This document shows, piece after piece, positions 1 to 9,228 of a DNA stretch of 11,270 bases. The stretch is from assembly GCA_024278215.1 (NCBI GenBank), contig JAJRTR010000166.1, forward strand, positions 1 to 11,270. The letters are read 5' to 3'. Every line of letters begins with the position of its first letter. Position 1 is the first letter of the stretch. The position numbers and the translations under genes were made by a program. The stretch comes from a bacterium (GTDB taxonomy: Bacteria; UBP15; UBA6099; JAJRTR01). The notes beneath the pieces were generated by a model. The model was not told the DNA's origin, made no database searches, and worked only from the letters and a program-made list of their open reading frames with translations.

Positions 1-334
1 CAGGAAGAAATTTTATTTTAAGTTCATCTGAACCAGAAAGAAGCGGGATAGTCGAGAGCAGGCCGGAGGCGTGTGCTGTAAGAGCGGTGGACGCGCAGGC
101 GGCGGCAAGCTCCTCCATGCAGAGGCAATGCGCTATCAGTCCCGCGCCGCTTCCACCTGTTTTCTTTGGGACTACGTGGCATAGCAGGCCCGCCGAGGCG
201 ATCTTCTTCAGTTGCTCATGCGCGGGCTTCTTACGTGCGTCCACTTCTTCAGCAGCAGGAGATATTTCTTTCGCACACAACTCTCGCGCAGCTTTTTGAA
301 CTTCCTGTTGTTGCTCCGTAAAATTCAGGTCCAT
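1..334 (-). CDS. Acyl-CoA dehydrogenase, N-terminal part (cut by window edge)
   Basis: Translated on the minus strand from the ATG at 334, this gives an open frame of 111 codons that runs off the left edge. It begins MDLNFTEQQQEVQKAARELC and continues with KEISPAAEEVD. That is the usual opening of the all-helical N-terminal domain of acyl-CoA dehydrogenases, FAD enzymes that put a double bond between C2 and C3 of an acyl-CoA. The later segment CMEELAAACASTALTAHASG fits the E-E-L-A-x-x-x-x-S/A-x-x motif of that domain. The FAD-binding and catalytic regions lie outside the window. The start lies one base after the TGA (336-338) of the upstream dehydrogenase, so the two are very probably translationally coupled, as expected for subunits needed in equal amounts. 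Whether they form a heteromer is inference. Confidence 0.88.
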   Translation of the reverse strand, partial: MDLNFTEQQQEVQKAARELCAKEISPAAEEVDARKKPAHEQLKKIASAGLLCHVVPKKTGGSGAGLIAHCLCMEELAAACASTALTAHASGLLSTIPLLSGSDELKIKFLP

Positions 335-335
335 A

Positions 336-1517
336 TCAGCTTTTCATCCCTTCCTTCTTTGCCTTTTTCAGGTTCATTATCATGCGGGAAATAATATTGC
401 GCTGGATTTCAGAAGTTCCGCCTCCGATTGTGCCGAGCTTGGCGTCCCTGTAACCCCATTCGACCGGATACTCTTTCATATAACCATAGCCGCCGTGAAT
501 CTGTACGGCATGGTCCGCCAGCTTCAAACCCATCTCCGTTATAAATAGCTTGGAGATTGATGCTTCAAGCATTGCGGGCATCTCATTCTTTTTCATCCAG
601 GCCACCTTGTACATGATGCGCTTTGACGCCGCATGAATCATCTTCATTTCAGCGAGCTTGCTTTGCACTGCCTGAAATTCAGATATGGAGCGTCCGAACT
701 GTTTTCTGTCTTTTGCGTACTGCGAGCAAATCTCTATCGCAGCCGCCATGCCCCCTACACCCGCGGCGAGAAGGCATGAGCGTTCCCACTCGAGAATAGT
801 TTTCCCCACCTGGAGAAATCCGTATCCTTCAGCCCCGAGCATATTTTCAGCAGGAACCTCGCAATCCTCGAAGATCAGCTCCGAAGTAGTGGAAGTGCGA
901 TTACCCATCTTGTTGAGTTCTTTGCCCACAGAAAATCCGGGGAAATCCTTCTCCACTATAAACGCGCTTATTCCCATGTGCTTCATTTCTTTGTTTGTAA
1001 CGGCGATAACAACAAAAACATTACCTATGGGGCCGTTAGTAATAAACATCTTCGTGCCGTTAAGGATATACTTGTCTCCTTTTTTTACTGCGGTGGTCTG
1101 AACGCCCGCCGCGTCGGACCCAGCGCCCGGTTCTGTAAGCCCGAATCCGCCGATCCATTCCGCCGATGCTATTTTCGTCAGATATTTCTTCTTTTGCTCT
1201 TCGGTGCCAACCAGCCAGATGGGAACCCCGCACAGGACAGTATGCGCTCCCCAGGAAAGACAGAGTCCGGCAGTCGCTCCACCGTGGCCCAGCGCCTCCA
1301 TTCCGATAAGCGTGGTGAGAATGTCCGCTCCCGCCCCACCGTATTCCTCGGGAAACGGCAGGCCCATCATCCCGTACTCCGCCATCTTCTTCCAGGCAGG
1401 CCACGGAAACTCGCCCCTGGTTTCGTACTCTTCCATCAACGGCATAATCTCGTTACGTGAGAATTTATAAACAGCGTCTCTGAAAGCAAGCTGTTCTTCC
1501 GTTAAGCTGTAATCCAT
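336..1517 (-). CDS. Acyl-CoA dehydrogenase, isovaleryl/long-chain-like catalytic base
   Basis: This is a 393-residue FAD-dependent acyl-CoA dehydrogenase of full family length. The N-terminal helical domain covers about 1-120. The beta domain carries the signature GFGLTEPGAGSDAAG at 124-138 and MFITNG at 157-162. The C-terminal helical domain has DRKQFGRSISEFQAVQ at 270-285, QIHGGYGYMKEYPVE at 339-353 and RDAKLGTIGGGTSEIQR at 357-373. Short- and medium-chain enzymes have their catalytic Glu just before the G-T of that last motif. Here the position is Gly366. A Glu at 245 (LEWERSC) sits where isovaleryl-CoA and long-chain enzymes carry their base, so the enzyme is probably active. I chose the ATG at 1517 because AAAGGAG (1526-1532) lies 8 nt upstream. 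An in-frame TTG at 1538 would put that ribosome site inside the gene. The substrate is unknown. Confidence 0.95.
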   Translation of the reverse strand: MDYSLTEEQLAFRDAVYKFSRNEIMPLMEEYETRGEFPWPAWKKMAEYGMMGLPFPEEYGGAGADILTTLIGMEALGHGGATAGLCLSWGAHTVLCGVPIWLVGTEEQKKKYLTKIASAEWIGGFGLTEPGAGSDAAGVQTTAVKKGDKYILNGTKMFITNGPIGNVFVVIAVTNKEMKHMGISAFIVEKDFPGFSVGKELNKMGNRTSTTSELIFEDCEVPAENMLGAEGYGFLQVGKTILEWERSCLLAAGVGGMAAAIEICSQYAKDRKQFGRSISEFQAVQSKLAEMKMIHAASKRIMYKVAWMKKNEMPAMLEASISKLFITEMGLKLADHAVQIHGGYGYMKEYPVEWGYRDAKLGTIGGGTSEIQRNIISRMIMNLKKAKKEGMKS

Positions 1518-1550
1518 TGCCACCGCTCCTTTCGACAAGTGATGCTTATC

Positions 1551-1586
1551 CTATCCCGCATATTTTTTCACCAATGCGGGCTACTC
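1551..1586. repeat. Palindromic intergenic element, copy A
   Basis: Arms TATCCCGCAT (1552-1561) and ATGCGGGCTA (1574-1583) pair in 9 of 10 positions around a 12-nt loop. A near-identical element lies at 11135-11170: the first 15 bases are identical, then comes a variable centre of 4-5 nt, then 16 bases with two C/T changes. The element fills the gap between the acyl-CoA dehydrogenase start and the TetR stop, and its end touches that stop codon. It resembles REP/BIME-type dispersed palindromes. In the cluster transcript it could act as a processing or attenuation hairpin. Confidence 0.65.
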
Positions 1587-2193
1587 ATTTCTTCTCGCAT
1601 TCAAGACATCTGATTATCAGGTCATACACTGAGTCTGCTTTTTCGATTAGACTGTCTTTCGAGTCCTGAAAAAGCCACCTGAGTGCAAATGCCCGCAGAG
1701 TAGCGAACAGCATGTATGCAGCATCTTCGGTGTTCACCAGGCGGAACTCTCCTTTTTTGACACCATTCCGAATCTCTTTTTCCATGAAAACAATATGCTC
1801 CTGATAGGCAGATAAAATGCTGTTCTTGACTTCACTCTCAAAATCCAGCTTTTCCATCAACAGCATCTGGAAGAATGATTTCCGATTTTCAAAAAACTCA
1901 AACTCCGCTCGAATGAGTGCCGCCAGCCGTTTCTTCGGTTCTTCAACATCTTTGATTCGCTTCTCAACGCTTTTTGTAAGAATTGCATAGCCTCTCGAAA
2001 GAATAGCGTTTAGAATCGCATCCTTTGAATCGAAACACTTATATAGCGTAAACTTAGAAATCAGAGCGCGTTCCGCTATTTCATTCACGGTTGCTCCGTG
2101 AAAACCTTTTTTCATAAAAACTTCCTGGGCGGCATCCAGAATCTCACCGTTTCTCTTTCGTTCACGTTTTTCTTTAATACTCAGTTCACTCAT
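1585..2193 (-). CDS. TetR/AcrR-family transcriptional regulator
   Basis: A 202-residue one-component repressor of typical TetR length. The N-terminal DNA-binding domain is clear: EILDAAQEVFMKKGFHGATV at 17-36, then the helix-turn-helix NEIAERALISKFTLYKCFDS at 37-56 and KDAILNAIL. The remaining 140 residues form the divergent helical ligand-binding and dimerisation domain. The start has GGGAG about 9 nt upstream. The gene sits inside the catabolic-looking cluster, between the BKACE and acyl-CoA dehydrogenase genes. TetR proteins beside acyl-CoA dehydrogenases often sense acyl-CoAs (FadR of Bacillus, PsrA of Pseudomonas), so local control by an acyl-CoA intermediate is a reasonable inference. 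The ligand cannot be read from sequence. A 24-bp palindrome at 2245-2268 just upstream is a candidate binding site. Confidence 0.93.
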   Translation of the reverse strand: MSELSIKEKRERKRNGEILDAAQEVFMKKGFHGATVNEIAERALISKFTLYKCFDSKDAILNAILSRGYAILTKSVEKRIKDVEEPKKRLAALIRAEFEFFENRKSFFQMLLMEKLDFESEVKNSILSAYQEHIVFMEKEIRNGVKKGEFRLVNTEDAAYMLFATLRAFALRWLFQDSKDSLIEKADSVYDLIIRCLECEKK

Positions 2194-2244
2194 TTACAAT
2201 ATCTCCCTTACTATGTGACCGATGTAAAACCTGATAGTTATGAA

Positions 2245-2268
2245 ATCAATTCTCATTTGGAAATTGAT
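2245..2268. promoter_or_regulatory. Candidate TetR-type operator palindrome
   Basis: Perfect 7-bp arms ATCAATT and AATTGAT are separated by 10 nt in the 88-bp gap between the BKACE stop (2282) and the TetR start (2193). Length and position suit autoregulation by the TetR protein. No convincing sigma-70 promoter accompanies it, and AT-rich palindromes of this size can arise by chance. Confidence 0.3.
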
Positions 2269-2281
2269 CGACAACATGAGT

Positions 2282-3145
2282 TCAGTCCCTTTTCGGAAGA
2301 TTCAATATCTCCCGCGCCTCGTCCGGTGTGGCCGGTTTACGATCCAGCATACGGGCCATGTCCGCTACCTTCGCGACCTGTTCCCAACTTCCCTTCGCCA
2401 GTTCTTTGCCGCTTATATAGAGATTGTCCTCGAGACCCACTCGCAAGTTACCGCCCATCACTATCGCGGCCATGTTCGCCTGAAATGAATTTGGGCCTAC
2501 CCCGCAGACACACCACGTAGAACCAGCAGGTATGGAATTAACGAAAGCAACCAGGTAATCCATTCTGAACCTGATTCCACCGGCCACTCCGAACACGAAG
2601 TTAAAGTGCATTGGCTCTTCAAGAATTTTCTGCTTCTGGAGAAGAAGCACATTGTGAACGTGTCCGATATCGTACACTTCGCACTCGGGCTTAACATTGT
2701 TTTCCAGCATGATTTTGGCAAATTTTTTCACCATATCGAGCTTGTTTTCAAAAACAAAATCGAATATTATCTCGCCGGTCTTGTGATCCGCTAATGCAAA
2801 ATTCATGGTGCCTGTATTCAGGGATGCGAAATCAGGTTTGAATTCAGGTATGTGATGGATTCTTTCTTTCTCCGGCACACCGACACCGACCGCCGTGCTG
2901 AGATTAATCAGAATCGGGCAGCGCTCACGTATGCCGTTCACTATACCGCCCATGATTTCCAGGTTGGAAGTCGGCATCCCCGTTTCGGGATCGCGGGCAT
3001 GTATATGCACAATCGCAGCCCCGTTTTCATAGCACTTCACGGCTTCTTCAATAAACTCATCCTTCTTGTACGGTACATTTGGATTTTGCTCTTTACGTGT
3101 TGCCGCGCCAGTAAGCGCCGCTGTGATCACTACTTTGTCAGACAT
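2282..3145 (-). CDS. Beta-keto acid cleavage enzyme family protein (BKACE, DUF849)
   Basis: A 287-residue TIM-barrel metalloenzyme of normal family length. BKACE enzymes, typified by 3-keto-5-aminohexanoate cleavage enzyme (Kce) of lysine fermentation, react a beta-keto acid with acetyl-CoA to give acetoacetate and a new acyl-CoA. Visible hallmarks are VHIHARD (46-52) with the two zinc-binding histidines 47 and 49, SLNTGTMNF (108-116), KPECEVYDIGH (152-162), CGVGPNSFQANMAA (214-227) and RVGLEDN (235-241). In the last, Glu239 matches the third zinc ligand, and Arg235 and Asp240 match the conserved active-site pair. GGAGGT lies 7 nt before the start. Neighbouring dehydrogenases suggest it acts on a keto acid made by this cluster. 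Kce itself is unlikely because no other lysine-fermentation gene is present. The substrate is unknown. Confidence 0.93.
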   Translation of the reverse strand: MSDKVVITAALTGAATRKEQNPNVPYKKDEFIEEAVKCYENGAAIVHIHARDPETGMPTSNLEIMGGIVNGIRERCPILINLSTAVGVGVPEKERIHHIPEFKPDFASLNTGTMNFALADHKTGEIIFDFVFENKLDMVKKFAKIMLENNVKPECEVYDIGHVHNVLLLQKQKILEEPMHFNFVFGVAGGIRFRMDYLVAFVNSIPAGSTWCVCGVGPNSFQANMAAIVMGGNLRVGLEDNLYISGKELAKGSWEQVAKVADMARMLDRKPATPDEAREILNLPKRD

Positions 3146-3192
3146 TTACGAACCTCCATTATTTTGTTATCGTCGTATTCAATGCGTCCCGT

Positions 3193-4257
3193 TTATCCCG
3201 GCACGCTGCGCCCCGCCATTTTTCGAATAAGCTTGATGGGATTTGTTTTCATCATTCCTTCTTCTTGCATCCACTCGACAACCTCTTCGACTCCGCGCTC
3301 CGGTGTTGGATACTCGAACTCGTAGCCGAGGTCAAGAATTTTTTTGTTGCTGATGTAAACATCTACCGGGAAAATCTCCAGAGGCCCTTTTTCCAGGAGA
3401 GGCCGGGATTTTGTAACGTTCTTCGCAATCCATTCTGATATACTCGCCGCGATAAGACCTGCTTCCCTCGATATTTCAGGAGGCACAAAAAGCGGCACTG
3501 TAGGCTTACCCATAGCCTTCGCAATCAGCTTGATGAAGCCGGGAATCGTGATCCCGGAACTGTCAACCACGCAGTATTCTTCTCCTGCGGCTTCCTCTTT
3601 GTCCGCCACGAAAATCGACGCGCCGCCCATATCCCTGGCATGTACAGTACCAAGACGGTACTTAAAATTAGCCGGATAAAAAACAACCGGCAATGCCGCG
3701 AAAATATCGAACATCTGCGCGGCTCCATATTTCGCCCGTGGGCCATACACAACCCCTGGCCGCACGATTGTCGTGGCCAGTTTCCCTTCTTCATTGAACC
3801 TGTGCGCGATCTGGTCCTGCTTGTGTTTTGTTACGCTATAATCTTCTATCGGCGATTTTGGATAATCCTCACATATCGGGAGTTTGTCGAACTGCTGGTT
3901 ACCGTATACACCGCTCGTGCTCCAGGAAACCAGCCTGCGGACTCCTGCCTCGCTCGCCGCCATGCAGAGGTTTTCCATTCCCTGCACATTTACCGCCTCC
4001 AGCAGTTCCAGAGATGCGGACCAGTCGAATATCGCCGCGGTATGCAGCACGACATCCACATCTTTGACAACAGTCCTGAGGCTTTCCGGATCGGTGAGGT
4101 CACTTGGTATGAACTCGGCGCCTGACGGAAGATAGCTTCTGTCCGCTCCCACCATGTCCGTAGCCCTGAAGTCCAATCCCCGCTCGTGCAGCAAGTCACA
4201 CAAATGCGACCCGGTAAAACCGCACGCGCCCGTTACCAGATATTTCGTTTCACTCAT
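3193..4257 (-). CDS. NAD(P)-dependent extended SDR (epimerase / 3-beta-HSD-like)
   Basis: A 354-residue extended short-chain dehydrogenase/reductase. The Rossmann dinucleotide motif GACGFTG is at 10-16, an acidic residue (Asp34) ends the second strand and favours NAD, and DLTD follows at 53-56. The active site reads SWSTSGVYG (111-119) and Tyr140-SVT-Lys144, giving a complete Ser/Thr-Tyr-Lys set. RPGVVYGP and GTVHARDM are typical of the substrate domain. The family includes sugar epimerases, 3-beta-hydroxysteroid dehydrogenases and dihydroflavonol reductases. In a cluster with acyl-CoA and keto-acid enzymes, oxidation of a secondary alcohol to a ketone (or the reverse) fits better than nucleotide-sugar chemistry, but that is inference. 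AGGGGG lies about 10 nt before the ATG. A related gene lies at 5844-6920, and the C-terminal stretch NKKILDLGYEFEYPTPERGV is shared in form with it. Confidence 0.92.
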   Translation of the reverse strand: MSETKYLVTGACGFTGSHLCDLLHERGLDFRATDMVGADRSYLPSGAEFIPSDLTDPESLRTVVKDVDVVLHTAAIFDWSASLELLEAVNVQGMENLCMAASEAGVRRLVSWSTSGVYGNQQFDKLPICEDYPKSPIEDYSVTKHKQDQIAHRFNEEGKLATTIVRPGVVYGPRAKYGAAQMFDIFAALPVVFYPANFKYRLGTVHARDMGGASIFVADKEEAAGEEYCVVDSSGITIPGFIKLIAKAMGKPTVPLFVPPEISREAGLIAASISEWIAKNVTKSRPLLEKGPLEIFPVDVYISNKKILDLGYEFEYPTPERGVEEVVEWMQEEGMMKTNPIKLIRKMAGRSVPG

Positions 4258-4316
4258 ATCTTGTTTTCCCCCTTTTTATTGTTTCTGTTCTATATTTTCC
4301 GCATCAGAACACAGCA

Positions 4317-5426
4317 TCAGTATTCTCCAAATTCACAGCCGCCCATCCGTCCATCGAAAGTATCTATGAGTTCATAGGCTCCACCCGATTTGCGGTAAAG
4401 TTTCACCGTTCCGGATGCGTGGTGTCCGTTCCATAGCTGGTTGTGCTTTTTTTCTCCGTCCGGATTTTCATAGTTGAACAACTGCATGTAATCGCGCGGA
4501 CACGAGAAACTTATTTCGATTTTCGCATTTTTATTCCATGCGGTGATATCCCATATCCCTTTTTTATCTGTAGTTTTACAAACAAAACGTTGTTTGGGAT
4601 TCAGCCATACCTTCGAGAAATTGAACTCATACAGTTGGCCTTCATGATAAAAGGCAACGAGAAGTCTCCTGGGCAGATTCATTCCGAAAAAAACCGGTTG
4701 TGCGCCTCCAACATCCATACTTGTCATTTTAAGTTTTTTCCCAGTGGAATGGCTTGTGAAATTGTTGCAGTTCAACCAGACCCAGTTTCTCGTGTAATCA
4801 GTGCCCCAGTTCTTATCCTGGTAACCACAGCATGTGTCCGGAGTTATGCCGTACTCCTCGCCATTAAATTCTATTGTTCCTGTATATTCAGTTTTCATTC
4901 CCTCTACATGCCAGAACATTTGGAAGGCACTAAGCGTGCGTAACGGTTTTGACGCCCCGAAACCAACGTCATACGACAGTACCTTTTTGACTTTAATATC
5001 CCAGCTCATTTCTCCTGCGTTCGCCATGAATTCCGGGTGCGCCAAAGATTCTTCCTTTGTTATCCTGACCGCCCCCTTGATATGGGTTTCCGTCGCGGTG
5101 TGTGCCCCGATCCTGACATCCATTTTTTGCGGCGAAGCGGAAAAGTCATCGATGCCGTAGAAATTGTGAATCTGCACCGCGCCTTCCTTGCCCCAACTCC
5201 CGGCTTTCAGCATGGCATAAGAAGGTTTAATGCCTTTTCGCTTGTTTTCTTCAAGCTGGCCCAGGATGGGTTCTTTCCCGCCAAGCGCGGGATTCACGAC
5301 ATAATATTCGATAAAGAATGGTCTTTCTTCCCCGGTTGCCTTGCTTATGCCCACCAGCGAATGCCACCACCAGTCATAGCCTCTTCGGGCAAGCCGGCCT
5401 TTGAGCATGTATCCGTTTCTGCTCAT
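4317..5426 (-). CDS. Tocopherol-cyclase-like / CrtC-like lipocalin-fold protein
   Basis: A 369-residue protein, all-beta in character, with no signal peptide or membrane helix. Near the start it has YDWWWHSLVG (17-26) and ERPFFIEYYVVNP (34-46). In the middle, GYQDKNWGTDYTRNWVWLNC (201-220) leads into NNF. The D-K-N-W-G...W-x-W pattern is the signature I associate with tocopherol cyclase-like proteins (VTE1 family) and resembles the hydratase CrtC. These double-barrel lipocalin-fold proteins bind hydrophobic terpenoid or polyketide substrates and can catalyse cyclisation, hydration or Diels-Alder reactions. True tocopherol synthesis is not implied, since no prenyl-quinone gene is present. AAGGGGGG lies about 7 nt before the ATG. 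The gene starts 19 bp after the small membrane protein, and the two flanking SDRs suggest a shared pathway. Function is unassigned. Confidence 0.72.
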   Translation of the reverse strand: MSRNGYMLKGRLARRGYDWWWHSLVGISKATGEERPFFIEYYVVNPALGGKEPILGQLEENKRKGIKPSYAMLKAGSWGKEGAVQIHNFYGIDDFSASPQKMDVRIGAHTATETHIKGAVRITKEESLAHPEFMANAGEMSWDIKVKKVLSYDVGFGASKPLRTLSAFQMFWHVEGMKTEYTGTIEFNGEEYGITPDTCCGYQDKNWGTDYTRNWVWLNCNNFTSHSTGKKLKMTSMDVGGAQPVFFGMNLPRRLLVAFYHEGQLYEFNFSKVWLNPKQRFVCKTTDKKGIWDITAWNKNAKIEISFSCPRDYMQLFNYENPDGEKKHNQLWNGHHASGTVKLYRKSGGAYELIDTFDGRMGGCEFGEY

Positions 5427-5445
5427 CCTTTTCCCCCCCTTACCT

Positions 5446-5844
5446 TCACTTTGTTGAAGATTGCGTTTTAGATGATTTCCACGACGGCTGGAACGGGGCG
5501 GAACTATCCTTTAATGAAAACGGCCAGACCATACCGGCCTGGGTCCGGTCATGCCCAAAAAGATATGTGGCAATCTGACCACTGAAGTTAAACCAAAGCG
5601 GATAGCTGAGCGCCGTTGGTATCGCCACAGCGATGGGAACCGTTACTGCGGGAAAGAGCCCGAACCACGGTTCGATGACTCCAAGTCCGGCCATCAGGAT
5701 ATTGCCCCAGAAAATCGCTGTGATACTAGATAAAAGGAAAAACCACCAGTCGGGATTCTTCCTTCTCAAGCGTTTCGCGTAAATCATCGCCAATATGAAC
5801 CCCGCAATTATTACTGCCGGAATATCAAAAACACACATTTCCAT
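5446..5844 (-). CDS. Small three-helix membrane protein of unknown function
   Basis: A 132-residue protein I cannot assign to a family. Three hydrophobic segments are visible at about 8-23, 33-56 and 62-85. The basic loop AKRLRRKN after the first helix suggests that loop is cytoplasmic, with the N-terminus outside and the hydrophilic Ser/Lys-rich tail (about 105-132) inside. The start is taken as the ATG at 5844, which overlaps the TGA of the upstream SDR by one base (TGATG) and has GAGGGGG 8 nt upstream. The open frame extends three codons further to a GTG at 5853 with no separate ribosome site. Overlap with the SDR and a 19-bp gap to the cyclase-like gene make it part of the same transcript. 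It may anchor the pathway at the membrane or move its substrate, which is inference. Confidence 0.82.
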   Translation of the reverse strand: MEMCVFDIPAVIIAGFILAMIYAKRLRRKNPDWWFFLLSSITAIFWGNILMAGLGVIEPWFGLFPAVTVPIAVAIPTALSYPLWFNFSGQIATYLFGHDRTQAGMVWPFSLKDSSAPFQPSWKSSKTQSSTK

Positions 5845-6920
5845 CACAGCCACCCCCTCTCACGACACCACGTTATATAATCCCATACGCCTTTTCGCGG
5901 ATCCTCATAGATGAATTCAAATCCAAGATCTTTTATTTTCTTATTTAAAAACCAGTACTGGTGTGTCAGGTACTCAACCATCGGCACGTCTATCTTTGGG
6001 CGCGTGCCGAGCTTGCGAGCTTTGCGGTCAAGTCTTGATATGAACCAAAGGGAAATTTTCGCGAATGCCTTGTACATCAGCCACAACACCGGAACCCTGA
6101 TAGTATGCTCGAGACCCAGCGCCCGCGCCGAAAACTCCATCCACTCACTCTGCTGAATGCAGTCGCTCAATACATTGTACGCCTGCCCGACAGCTTCTTC
6201 TTTATCTGTTACGAAAAGTGCTGCTCGCACCAGGTCCGTCACGTGCACCGACGGCATCATAAGTGTTTTGCTTTTTGGATAAAAAGAAACCGATACACCC
6301 GTACCGATTTTCTTTATTCCATAAAGGATATGATATACACCATACCTGTGCCGCGGTCCGTATATCGGCGCAGGCCTGATAATAGTCAGCGGAAGCCCCT
6401 TTTCCTCATACATCGCAAGCAGCACTTTCTCCTGCTCCATCTTGGACTTCGAGTAATCGTTCCCCGGAGCATAAGGCGCAGTCTCATCGGAAGGCACTTC
6501 ATGAGGCGCACCGTACACTCCATCCGTGCTCCAGTGAACAAATCGTCCGACACCATGTTCGACCACCAGTTCAGCGAGGTTGCGCGTACCTTCAACATTT
6601 ATCTTGTACAGAACATCCCACTTCGCGAAATAATCATAAAGAGATGCTGTGTGGAAGATTGCATCGTAGGGTTCACAATCGAACAGAGGCTTCAGAGATT
6701 CCTTGTCTGTAAGGTCTGCGGTAATGAACTTTATCCCCATATCCCGGACAAAGTCCTCATACATCATCGGGTGCAGATCGCCGTTTTCACAATAATATTC
6801 CTTATGCAGATTGCCAGTAAGGTCCGTTCCCGTAACATCCCAGCCATTTTCCACCAGCAATTCAACCATGTGCGTTCCGGTGAATCCGCATGCACCTGTG
6901 ACAAGCGCTCTTTTCGGCAT
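5844..6920 (-). CDS. NAD(P)-dependent extended SDR, first gene of the cluster
   Basis: A 358-residue extended SDR. The dinucleotide-binding GACGFTG is at 9-15, TADLTD at 67-72, the active-site strand HWSTDGVYG at 129-137 and Tyr156-SKS-Lys160 completes the triad. IIRPAPIYGPR and PSVHVTDLVRAALF follow as in other epimerase/3-beta-HSD-like members. It is a paralogue of the SDR at 3193-4257: both share GACGFTG and an NKKI-DLG-(Y/F)-EF ending. The region around 280-305 is hydrophobic and aromatic (VLWLMYKAFAKISLWFI), which could be a membrane-associating helix or the lid of a lipid-binding pocket. I chose the ATG at 6920 with GGGAG 8 nt upstream. A GTG at 6935 in the same frame is less likely because it would place that ribosome site inside the gene. 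Confidence 0.9.
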   Translation of the reverse strand: MPKRALVTGACGFTGTHMVELLVENGWDVTGTDLTGNLHKEYYCENGDLHPMMYEDFVRDMGIKFITADLTDKESLKPLFDCEPYDAIFHTASLYDYFAKWDVLYKINVEGTRNLAELVVEHGVGRFVHWSTDGVYGAPHEVPSDETAPYAPGNDYSKSKMEQEKVLLAMYEEKGLPLTIIRPAPIYGPRHRYGVYHILYGIKKIGTGVSVSFYPKSKTLMMPSVHVTDLVRAALFVTDKEEAVGQAYNVLSDCIQQSEWMEFSARALGLEHTIRVPVLWLMYKAFAKISLWFISRLDRKARKLGTRPKIDVPMVEYLTHQYWFLNKKIKDLGFEFIYEDPRKGVWDYITWCRERGWL

Positions 6921-7013
6921 TATCTTCACTCCCACATCAATTTTCTACTCAATTGCTTCCCATTTGAAAAAGCATCTTCCAACTACGCAATCGTATTTCT
7001 AAATCTGTAACTG

Positions 7014-7065
7014 TTCACGGGGAATGCCCGTGAATATTTTGGAGTGCAGCGACTGTGTCGTTGCA
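7014..7065. repeat. Two adjacent stem-loops
   Basis: TTCACGGG-GAATG-CCCGTGAA (7014-7034) is a perfect 8-bp stem with a 5-nt loop. It is followed by a 9-bp stem with one G-U pair and loop TGT (7045-7065, arms TGCAGCGAC and GTCGTTGCA). Neither is followed by a T-run, so they are not typical intrinsic terminators. They lie roughly 95-145 bp upstream of the SDR start and would fall in its leader if transcription begins further right. Confidence 0.5.
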
Positions 7066-7075
7066 TATACGGAGC

Positions 7076-7145
7076 CACTATAGTAATGAAAAGGTGCATT
7101 TCGCAAAAACTGACGTTTTTGCATTCCAAAGTTTTCCCGATAGTG
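7076..7145. repeat. Imperfect long inverted repeat around a perfect 8-bp hairpin
   Basis: The centre is GCAAAAAC-TGAC-GTTTTTGC (7103-7122), a perfect 8-bp stem. Flanking arms continue loosely outward to CACTAT (7076-7081) pairing with ATAGTG (7140-7145). A second, mutually exclusive pairing joins TTTGGAGTGCA (7038-7048) with TGCATTCCAAA (7120-7130), 11 bp with one wobble. The mix could be an alternative-structure RNA leader or the decayed end of a mobile element. Confidence 0.4.
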
Positions 7146-7548
7146 CCGGTCAAGCACAAAAAGCGAGTCTGTGATTTTGAGCAAATCTATAAATCATCAG
7201 TCGCATAAAGCTGTTTTATCAACTCCCCTGTGAATGGTTACCTAAATCTGTTTTCAATCTTGCCACCTTGCATACCTGTCGTTATTATTCTTACCTATTG
7301 TCTGTTTTCAGACCGTTAGTATGTTTAACTTATCACAAAGATAATTGCAATACAATAACATCAGAAAGTTTTTTTTCAAAGAGTGTGCGATATGAAGACT
7401 ACGTAGTGCCAGAACGGAAACCCCGCGAACCCCGATCACAACTGGTGCCAGGCTCCGAGAAGGCAGATGATGATATTTGACTCGTAGCGATTGAAAGCCT
7501 GTGAGAATGGTAATGCAGATATGATTCGTGTGCGAAATAAGTCATTTT

Positions 7549-7565
7549 CAAAAACAATGTTTTTG
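7549..7565. repeat. Hairpin CAAAAAC-AAT-GTTTTTG, related to 7103-7122
   Basis: A perfect 7-bp stem with a 3-nt loop. Like the hairpin at 7103-7122 it pairs AAAAAC with GTTTTT, and like it is followed by CGGTCAAG (7574-7581 here, 7147-7154 there). The spacing to that octamer differs, so the two are related but not simple copies. Shared regulatory sites or relics of one repeat are both possible. Confidence 0.4.
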
Positions 7566-7596
7566 TTAAAGTCGGTCAAGATGCATTTAAAATGCT

Positions 7597-7608
7597 GAAC
7601 GCACGTTC
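7597..7608. promoter_or_regulatory. GAAC-N4-GTTC palindrome (LexA/SOS-box-like)
   Basis: GAACGCACGTTC matches the GAAC-N4-GTTC core of the LexA (DinR) box known from Bacillus and several other phyla. It directly adjoins the -10 of the leftward promoter-like sequence at 7609-7636 and covers its expected start site, the usual place for a repressor. A second dyad, GCATTT-A-AAATGC (7583-7595), lies beside it. No SOS gene is nearby, so another regulator is equally possible. Confidence 0.35.
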
Positions 7609-7636
7609 GTTATAGTCGATCATTGTTGGTTGACAA
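7609..7636 (-). promoter_or_regulatory. Leftward sigma-70-type promoter candidate
   Basis: Read on the minus strand: TTGTCA (7636-7631), a 16-bp spacer, TATAAC (7614-7609). Both boxes match consensus at five of six positions. The expected start is near 7602, inside the palindrome 7597-7608. Leftward, the first solid gene is the SDR at 6920, which would give a leader of about 680 nt containing all the hairpins described. It could instead drive a small RNA or a lost gene. Confidence 0.45.
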
Positions 7637-7657
7637 TTATCATCTTCAACTTATTAC
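7630..7657 (+). promoter_or_regulatory. pgi: Rightward sigma-70-type promoter candidate for pgi
   Basis: A perfect TTGACA (7630-7635) is followed by a 16-bp spacer and TATTAC (7652-7657), a four-of-six -10. It would give a 5' leader of roughly 130 nt before the pgi ATG at 7798. Its -35 overlaps the -35 of the leftward promoter candidate on the other strand, so the two could not easily be occupied at once. Confidence 0.4.
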
Positions 7658-7797
7658 ACACGAATATAGTATTACACAATATCATTATCCTCAGACGCAC
7701 TTTTTAATTGTTGTTCACCAGAATCATCTTCAATGATACAATACACTATGGGAAAATTACTGTTATGAAAATCACCGGAAAAAAAAGGGAGGCACAA

Positions 7798-9228
7798 ATG
7801 GCAAAAAAGAAGAACAGATCGACGGCGGCCATAATTAAATATGACTATACGAATATGACGGATAGCGCAATAGGAGCAAGACACGGAATAACTGAAAAGC
7901 AAATAGAAAAAACAATGCCTCACGCGCAGGAAGTCCACAGGCGGCGCGTTGCGGAACGCAAAGCTGGCAAGCTCCCGTTCATGGACCTTCCCTACAAGAT
8001 AAATGAGGCGTCGGATATTGCCGGATTCGCAAAAAGCACAGCGGAAAAATTCGACAATGTCGTTGTTCTCGGCATCGGCGGATCGGCGCTGGGCACGATA
8101 TGCCTCCAGAGCGCGCTCAATCCTGCTTTTCATAATCTGAAGGACAACAGGAAAAGAAAAGCACCCCGTCTTTTTGTTGAAGATAATATCGACCCTGAAC
8201 GACTCGCCGACATGCTCGATGTCCTCGATCCTAAAAAAACACTTTTCAATGTAATATCAAAATCAGGCTCGACCGCCGAAACGATGAGCGCGTTTCTCGT
8301 CGCCCGCAATTTCATAAAAAGAACACTTGGCCCCGCCGCTGTAAAGGACCACATCGTCGCGACTACCGATGTGTCAAAAGGTGTTCTGAGGGACATCGCC
8401 GACAGCGAAGGACTCAGGAGTTTCATCGTACCCGACGGAGTCGGCGGCAGATTTTCAGTGCTCACACCTGTCGGGCTTCTCCCGGCGGCTCTAGTCGGAA
8501 TCGACATCCTGAAGCTGCTCGAAGGCGCAGCCATCATGGACAAAAGGTGCAGGTCCGCCTCCCCCGCAAAGAATCCCGCACTGATGGCCGCCCTGCTTCA
8601 ATATATTGCACTGACCCGCAAAGGCAAGAGCATACAGGTCATGATGCCCTATGCGAACGCACTGCGTGATGTTGCCGACTGGTTCCGACAGTTATGGGCG
8701 GAGAGTCTCGGCAAAAAGTATTCGCTGGACGGCAAAGTCGTCAATAGCGGCCAGACACCGGTCAAAGCTCTTGGTGCCACTGACCAGCATTCTCAGGCAC
8801 AATTGTACATGGAAGGCCCCAACGACAAGACAATCACCTTCCTGCGTGTCGAAAACTTCAGGAAAGATGTGAAAATACCCGGCGGCTATTCGAAAACCGA
8901 AGGGCTTTCATATCTCGCCGGTCACACTTTCGGCGAGCTGATACGTGCCGAGCAGGCGGCGACACAGATCGCAATTACGGACAACAATCGCCCCAACTCC
9001 ACGATAATACTCCCTGAGATAAGCCCGGCGACAATCGGGCAACTTCTTTACATGCTGGAAATTGAGACGTCATACATGGGGCTGTTGCTGAACATAGACG
9101 CATTCGACCAGCCGGGTGTCGAAGCAGGCAAAGTGGCCGCCTACGCGCTCATGGGCCGGGCAGGTTTCGAAAAACGCGCCGCCGAAATAAATAAAGAAGC
9201 GGCGAAGGTGAAAAGAAAAATAATATGA
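7798..9228 (+). CDS. pgi: Glucose-6-phosphate isomerase
   Basis: A 476-residue phosphoglucose isomerase, which interconverts glucose 6-phosphate and fructose 6-phosphate in glycolysis and gluconeogenesis (cytosol). It is of the shorter bacterial type; the E. coli enzyme has about 550 residues. Visible motifs are GIGGSALG (92-99), the phosphate-binding SKSGSTAET (154-162), DGVGGRFSVLTPVGL (213-227, family signature 1 with Arg218), AESLGKK (301-307) with the catalytic Glu302, GATDQHSQ (326-333) with His331, and GLLLNIDAFDQPGVEAGK (428-445, signature 2) ending in the active-site Lys445. I chose the ATG at 7798 because AGGGAGG (7786-7792) lies 5 nt upstream. The same frame is open to an ATG at 7765 and beyond, but those starts lack a ribosome site and do not extend the family alignment. 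It stands alone and converges on the HD-GYP gene. Confidence 0.96.
   Translation: MAKKKNRSTAAIIKYDYTNMTDSAIGARHGITEKQIEKTMPHAQEVHRRRVAERKAGKLPFMDLPYKINEASDIAGFAKSTAEKFDNVVVLGIGGSALGTICLQSALNPAFHNLKDNRKRKAPRLFVEDNIDPERLADMLDVLDPKKTLFNVISKSGSTAETMSAFLVARNFIKRTLGPAAVKDHIVATTDVSKGVLRDIADSEGLRSFIVPDGVGGRFSVLTPVGLLPAALVGIDILKLLEGAAIMDKRCRSASPAKNPALMAALLQYIALTRKGKSIQVMMPYANALRDVADWFRQLWAESLGKKYSLDGKVVNSGQTPVKALGATDQHSQAQLYMEGPNDKTITFLRVENFRKDVKIPGGYSKTEGLSYLAGHTFGELIRAEQAATQIAITDNNRPNSTIILPEISPATIGQLLYMLEIETSYMGLLLNIDAFDQPGVEAGKVAAYALMGRAGFEKRAAEINKEAAKVKRKII

Follow-up and report, generated by a model that had tools for sequence, protein, structure and literature searches.

Steroid side-chain dehydrogenases of the α2β2 type are encoded by adjacent genes, one for an active subunit and one for a subunit that lacks the catalytic glutamate (PMC8399759), as in ChsE1/2, ChsE4/5 and Scd1AB. 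The aldolases Ltp2 and Sal have a thiolase fold without the nucleophilic cysteine, are encoded next to their DUF35 partners (ChsH2 and Shy, respectively) and use the tyrosine of a YDHF or YDCY motif as the catalytic base (PMC12329534). Benzoylsuccinyl-CoA thiolase (BbsAB) also combines a thiolase-fold protein with a DUF35 partner. Two further systems are relevant here, namely the 3-keto-5-aminohexanoate cleavage enzyme Kce, which belongs to PF05853, and the PF14249/CrtC/AttH proteins (including tocopherol cyclase, kievitone hydratase, 25-phosphosteroid lyase and CghA/Fsa2), which share a two-barrel lipocalin-like fold. Resemblances to all of these are found at a locus in a bacterium of the GTDB lineage UBP15, UBA6099, JAJRTR01 (assembly GCA_024278215.1; here G000), whose 4.55-Mb draft genome comprises 207 contigs and is 95% complete. 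The stretch that we analyzed, hereafter the window, is the entire contig JAJRTR010000166.1 (C143), 11,270 bases long, and it carries a run of eight genes.

We propose, with roughly even confidence, that a cluster of ~15 genes, of which the window forms the right half, continues on contig C140 of the same genome and serves the CoA-dependent breakdown of a bulky hydrophobic acid by a steroid-like mechanism. The proposal builds on the observed gene order, protein families, catalytic residues kept or lost and conservation of the CoA-dependent core. The contig join, co-transcription, the individual reactions and the class of substrate are inferred. For comparison we used six genomes of the same order (G001–G006); none of the same family turned up.

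The gene run and its probable continuation on a second contig

The open reading frame list and profile searches place eight genes on the minus strand, from position 6935 down to the window edge (Table 1). They encode two short-chain dehydrogenases/reductases (SDRa and SDRb), a small protein (p7), a PF14249 protein (TC), a β-keto acid cleavage enzyme (BKACE), a TetR-family regulator and two acyl-CoA dehydrogenases (ACAD1 and ACAD2). The initial annotation, made from the window alone, had described eight genes on one strand with short gaps or overlaps and a TetR gene among them; this is borne out, with the correction that the run begins at 6935 and not at 6920. From SDRa to ACAD2, the intergenic gaps are −10, 19, 59, 47, 88, 46 and 1 bases, which makes an operon plausible. 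ACAD2 is cut because the window is the whole contig, and it breaks off after 111 residues (…KFLP).

When this genome was searched with a full-length relative of ACAD2, two C-terminal halves emerged, both at contig ends: one on C140 (query residues 118–373, LASAELIG…) and one on C63 (query residues 136–372, SDIETTA…). The only other broken N-terminal half that we found lies at the end of C199 (query residues 1–131, …DPSGG). This half fits C63 directly, whereas the half in the window can be joined to C140 with a single residue lacking by comparison with a relative's sequence; pairing C199 with C140 would create an overlap in non-matching sequence. From these sequences, and not from reads, we infer that C143 joins C140. 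The initial annotation had also expected a CoA ligase and a thiolase to the left, and both a ligase and two thiolase-fold proteins are indeed present. After the ACAD2 C-terminal half, C140 carries on one strand genes for an iron-dependent alcohol dehydrogenase (Fe-ADH), a 137-residue protein without a family match, the thiolase-fold proteins Thl1 and Thl2, an SCP2/DUF35 protein, a DUF35 protein and the CoA ligase. After Thl2 come the zf-ChsH2 and OB_ChsH2 proteins. In the SCP2/DUF35 protein, a zinc ribbon of the ChsH2 type is combined with two SCP2 stretches. The ligase is PaaK-like, scoring best against phenylacetate-CoA ligase models and far below the PaaK cut-off. A 242-base gap separates it from a nucleotidyltransferase-like gene.

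Catalytic residues and conservation of the two halves

In five of five homologs, ACAD1 has the helix-G glutamate (EWERS or EYERS), while the glutamate at the MCAD position is missing. Isovaleryl-CoA dehydrogenase and LCAD carry their catalytic base at the helix-G position (PMC11153573). The EWER motif is also common to ACAD1 and prolyl-ACP dehydrogenase (4irn) when the two are aligned. ACAD2 homologs have Ala, Ala, Ala, Val and Gly at the helix-G position and Gly, Asp, Gly and Asn at the other (one sequence is incomplete). The two genes are an adjacent pair with one subunit lacking the catalytic glutamate, as in ChsE1/2, ChsE4/5 and Scd1AB; they differ from these in that ACAD1 uses the helix-G glutamate and is closest to short/branched-chain enzymes. 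ACAD1 orthologs (66–73%) are present in all six order relatives. ACAD2 is the next gene downstream in G001, G002, G004, G005 and G006, and in G003 the contig ends at that point.

Thl1 and Thl2 both lack the nucleophilic cysteine (replaced by A/G) and the histidine of the GHP motif (replaced by F/N) in a phmmer alignment, and so do not have the residues of a genuine thiolase. At the position of the HDCF motif, Thl1 has HSSY and Thl2 has YDPS; YDHF or YDCY is absent from both. Because the Tyr-Asp of Ltp2 and Sal is kept in Thl2 only, aldolase chemistry is suggested rather than demonstrated. The DUF35 partner typical of those aldolases is present beside Thl1/Thl2, which differ from them in being encoded in tandem. 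They differ from BbsAB in the missing cysteine, and they score far under its family cut-off.

The complete Thl1–Thl2–SCP2/DUF35–DUF35 set occurs in G001, G003 and G004 and three times in the source genome (C140, C199 and C43). Thl1–Thl2 lie at contig ends in G002 and G005, and no set passed in G006, a fragmented genome. The dehydrogenase pair and the Thl set occur together in window/C140, C199/C63 and G005; in the latter two, the pair is divergent to, and beside, the Thl set. A CoA ligase precedes the locus in G005, and a MaoC-type protein follows on C63. The copy on C43 (L218, 25001–45000) spans about 7282–11300, with no acyl-CoA dehydrogenase pair in the 20 kb read.

To the right half belong the SDRa–p7 pair, SDRb, BKACE and a lipocalin-fold protein that occurs on its own in many phyla. 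Among the genomes examined, neither the 80 PF14249 loci, which span many phyla, nor the order relatives have the eight-gene set, which is so far particular to the source genome. By these comparisons, the cluster is a mosaic with an order-wide left half and a lineage-specific right half. The initial annotation had suggested that the enzymes could form one route and had named scattering in relatives as an observation that would refute this. Conservation does not bear out the eight families as a unit. Such scattering is largely what we see for the window part, with BKACE, SDRb and the PF14249 protein elsewhere; SDRa with p7 and ACAD1 with ACAD2 do stay together. Its idea that a hydrophobic substrate is oxidized and then shortened in CoA-dependent steps agrees with the look of the gene set, and no named pathway with this set was found here either. 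The earlier interpretation is thus half right and partly supported, resting on a real, slightly mis-bounded observation.

SDRa has orthologs in G173 (66%) and G071 (56%), and p7 overlaps it by 10 bases. The two genes are adjacent with the same order and overlap in G173, G246, G247 and G071, four genomes from two other lineages. The pair is rare (4 of 386 sampled genomes, the window's own included). A second SDR gene follows it in G173 and G246; its neighbors in G173 and G071 include no CoA-pathway genes. Structure prediction for p7 yielded a low-confidence single-sequence model, and p7 may anchor SDRa at the membrane. The protein and its homologs (at loci L140, L141, L207 and L208) share the invariant motifs SYPxWF and PFxPxW. 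SDRb has relatives at 59–68% identity in the order, in other surroundings.

An AlphaFold model of TC, built with 34 relatives as input, has a pLDDT of 93.6. Its whole-length fold matches are the pericyclases CghA/Fsa2, AttH NE1406, kievitone hydratase and 25-phosphosteroid lyase (Z of 19–23 over 260–291 residues, identity of 7–14%), with all remaining structural matches below a Z of 8. The 25-phosphosteroid lyase and kievitone hydratase matches (Z of 19.9 and 20.6; identity of 13%) concern the fold, which by itself does not give the reaction of TC; two of the fold-matching enzymes act on prenyl or sterol tails. TC differs from the solved proteins in its own invariant motifs, GYDWWWH and DKNWG, and we know of no characterized member of its family. 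Relatives at 44–67% identity occur in Anaerolineae, Spirochaetes, Actinomycetota, Bacillota, a cyanobacterium and others. Homologs in the order relatives are remote only (~27% identity), which suggests that TC was acquired horizontally. None of the 80 PF14249 loci has orthologs of the window's SDR, BKACE or acyl-CoA dehydrogenase genes adjoining, ruling out the PF14249 gene as the marker of a conserved pathway. A DUF362 protein often adjoins it in Anaerolineae, Spirochaetes and some Firmicutes (L024–L029, L033–L039, L062 and L063); a 4Fe–4S protein, a MarR regulator or an aldehyde:ferredoxin oxidoreductase is found in several loci. Its frequent neighbors in Butyrivibrio and rumen clostridia (L080, L084, L088, L074 and L077) are a reductase of the Old-Yellow-Enzyme type and/or an SDR of the classical type.

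BKACE matches PF05853 over its full length and, like Kce, keeps the metal-site HxH and glutamate, differing from it in an alanine for Glu14. The alanine and a score of 293 bits against the NCBIfam Kce model (cut-off of 382) set it apart from Kce proper, and the substrate is probably not an amino-keto acid. A paralog (85%) is present on contig C89, and orthologs at 61–71% occur within the order in other surroundings. The sole hint of linkage comes from G002, in which the 61% ortholog, a CoA ligase and an ACAD1 start are found on one contig of 7.5 kb.

A putative route and its alternatives

In the route that we propose, the SDRs would oxidize a secondary alcohol of a bulky hydrophobic molecule, with p7 probably holding SDRa at the membrane, and the lipocalin-fold protein would bind the oily part, where it may hydrate, eliminate or cyclize. 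The PaaK-like ligase would form the CoA ester, and ACAD1/ACAD2 would together make up a heteromeric dehydrogenase in which a single subunit is catalytic. Water would be added by a hydratase encoded elsewhere, for which the MaoC-type protein on C63 is a candidate. Thl1/Thl2 and the DUF35 proteins would then cleave the chain, more probably by retro-aldol reaction than by thiolysis because the nucleophilic cysteine is gone, while the SCP2 domains would hold the hydrophobic acyl-CoA. BKACE would dispose of a released β-keto acid, and TetR would regulate the cluster.

Several observations weigh against this route. As a set, the right half lacks conservation, ACAD1 is nearest in sequence to general short/branched-chain dehydrogenases and not to ChsE, and the ChsH2-type zinc ribbon of the DUF35 protein is joined to SCP2 instead of a MaoC hydratase. 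A TAG codon interrupts Fe-ADH, for which a recent pseudogene, a sequencing error and a strain variant are candidate explanations. Known steroid degradation routes need a ketosteroid Δ1-dehydrogenase; none was found in the 95%-complete genome, where only two FAD_binding_2 proteins pass an E of 1e-15 (SdhA and a GlpB-like protein), and whole-steroid breakdown is therefore not supported. This same absence makes it very improbable that the locus is a true side-chain degradation cluster for sterol-derived acids, as do the lack of YDHF/YDCY in Thl1/Thl2 and the distance of ACAD1 from ChsE, even though the heteromeric dehydrogenase with its Glu-less subunit, the Cys-less thiolase-fold proteins with DUF35, the SCP2 domains, the 3β-HSD-like SDRs and the fold kinship of TC with 25-phosphosteroid lyase would all suit one. 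The PaaK-like ligase and the presence of benzoylsuccinyl-CoA thiolase among the PDB matches of both Thl1 and Thl2 also count against our proposal and point instead to an aromatic or arylsuccinate-type acid, degraded in the style of the benzylsuccinate pathway by ligase, dehydrogenase, SDR oxidation and thiolytic cleavage by a BbsAB-like DUF35-thiolase. We consider this improbable, since the scores lie far under the PaaK and BbsB cut-offs, Thl1/Thl2 lack the cysteine needed for thiolysis, the window SDRs are of the extended, epimerase type, whereas BbsCD is a classical-type SDR, and the SCP2 and lipocalin-fold proteins indicate a larger, lipid-like ligand.

The main rival, possible but on the unlikely side, is that two unrelated units share a strand and no pathway: a lineage-specific, partly horizontally acquired lipid-modifying operon (SDRa–p7–TC–SDRb and perhaps BKACE) and a FadR-type regulated acyl-CoA degradation operon from TetR leftwards. 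Conservation does split near TetR, with the left genes an order-wide core and the right genes separate in other lineages; the two widest gaps of the run flank the neighborhood of TetR (88 bases before TetR itself), which is FadR-like, and SDRa–p7 stands without CoA genes in G173 and G071. However, no gap exceeds 88 bases, the strand does not change, no convincing terminator lies between the halves and BKACE, itself CoA-dependent, belongs to the right half.

A more doubtful reading is that the locus represents a steroid-side-chain-style machine of new composition, combining a heteromeric dehydrogenase with a Glu-less subunit, a paired Cys-less thiolase-fold aldolase and SCP2 carrier domains fused to a zinc ribbon of the ChsH2 type. 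This would be the standard route of the uncultured order for a non-steroid polycyclic or isoprenoid acid, with the SDR–membrane protein pair and a lipocalin-fold lyase/hydratase recruited in this lineage for a new substrate. If our proposal holds, heteromeric acyl-CoA dehydrogenases and DUF35-partnered thiolase-fold aldolases would not be confined to actinobacteria and proteobacteria as a specialty for steroids. They would instead serve more generally to shorten bulky acyl chains and occur several times per genome in a little-known order. A role open to testing would also emerge for the lipocalin-fold family, whose members occur in many phyla, rumen bacteria among them.

Regulatory sequences and coordinates

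Table 1. Coordinates of the gene run, its neighbors and related features (window positions unless another locus is given).
Feature	Position	Strand	Evidence or remark
SDRa, extended SDR / NAD-dependent epimerase-dehydratase, 363 aa, first gene of run	5844..6935	-	PF01370, 141 bits
p7, 135 aa, three predicted membrane helices	5446..5853	-	Hydropathy; no Pfam or NCBIfam match
TC, PF14249 lipocalin-fold protein, 369 aa	4317..5426	-	59 bits vs curated cut-off of 26.6
SDRb, extended SDR, 354 aa	3193..4257	-	PF01370, 121.5 bits
BKACE, β-keto acid cleavage enzyme, 287 aa	2282..3145	-	PF05853, 323 bits
TetR-family regulator, FadR(YsiA)-like	1585..2193	-	PF00440 and PF08359
ACAD1, acyl-CoA dehydrogenase, complete, helix-G catalytic Glu (EWER)	336..1538	-	Profile match and alignment
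ACAD2, acyl-CoA dehydrogenase, N-terminal 111 residues only	2..334	-	Remainder on C140 (L203:2-805)
PGI, upstream neighbor of run	7708-9228	+	
GAF-HD-GYP, upstream neighbor of run	10930-9338	-	
Fe-ADH	L203:814-2019 (G000:C140)		One in-frame TAG
TCTGATAATATCAGA site	G000:C199:26892-26906 (L229)		
TCTGATAATATCAGA site	G005:C102:2827-2841 (L230)		

The TetR protein scores 89.6 bits against the NCBIfam FadR model, below the cut-off of 200. Predicted terminators in the window are at the shuffled expectation (12 versus 10.9), and promoter-like sites number 23 against an expected 14.3 ± 3.4; the scan gave no dividing line between the halves. No Rfam family was found in the window. The 770-base intergenic region between the divergent SDRa and PGI genes (6936–7707) contains two exact palindromes, CAAAAACAATGTTTTTG at 7549 and CAAAAACTGACGTTTTTG at 7104. 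In the search for a TetR operator in the window, the palindromes of 6930–7707 were not common to relatives. The sequence TGATAATATCA occurs at the C199 and G005 loci only. In two families, the divergent promoter that separates Thl1 from the ligase/ACAD1 genes contains TCTGATAATATCAGA, a near-perfect palindrome; with up to one mismatch allowed, the seven genomes have only four such sites, which makes it a candidate operator.

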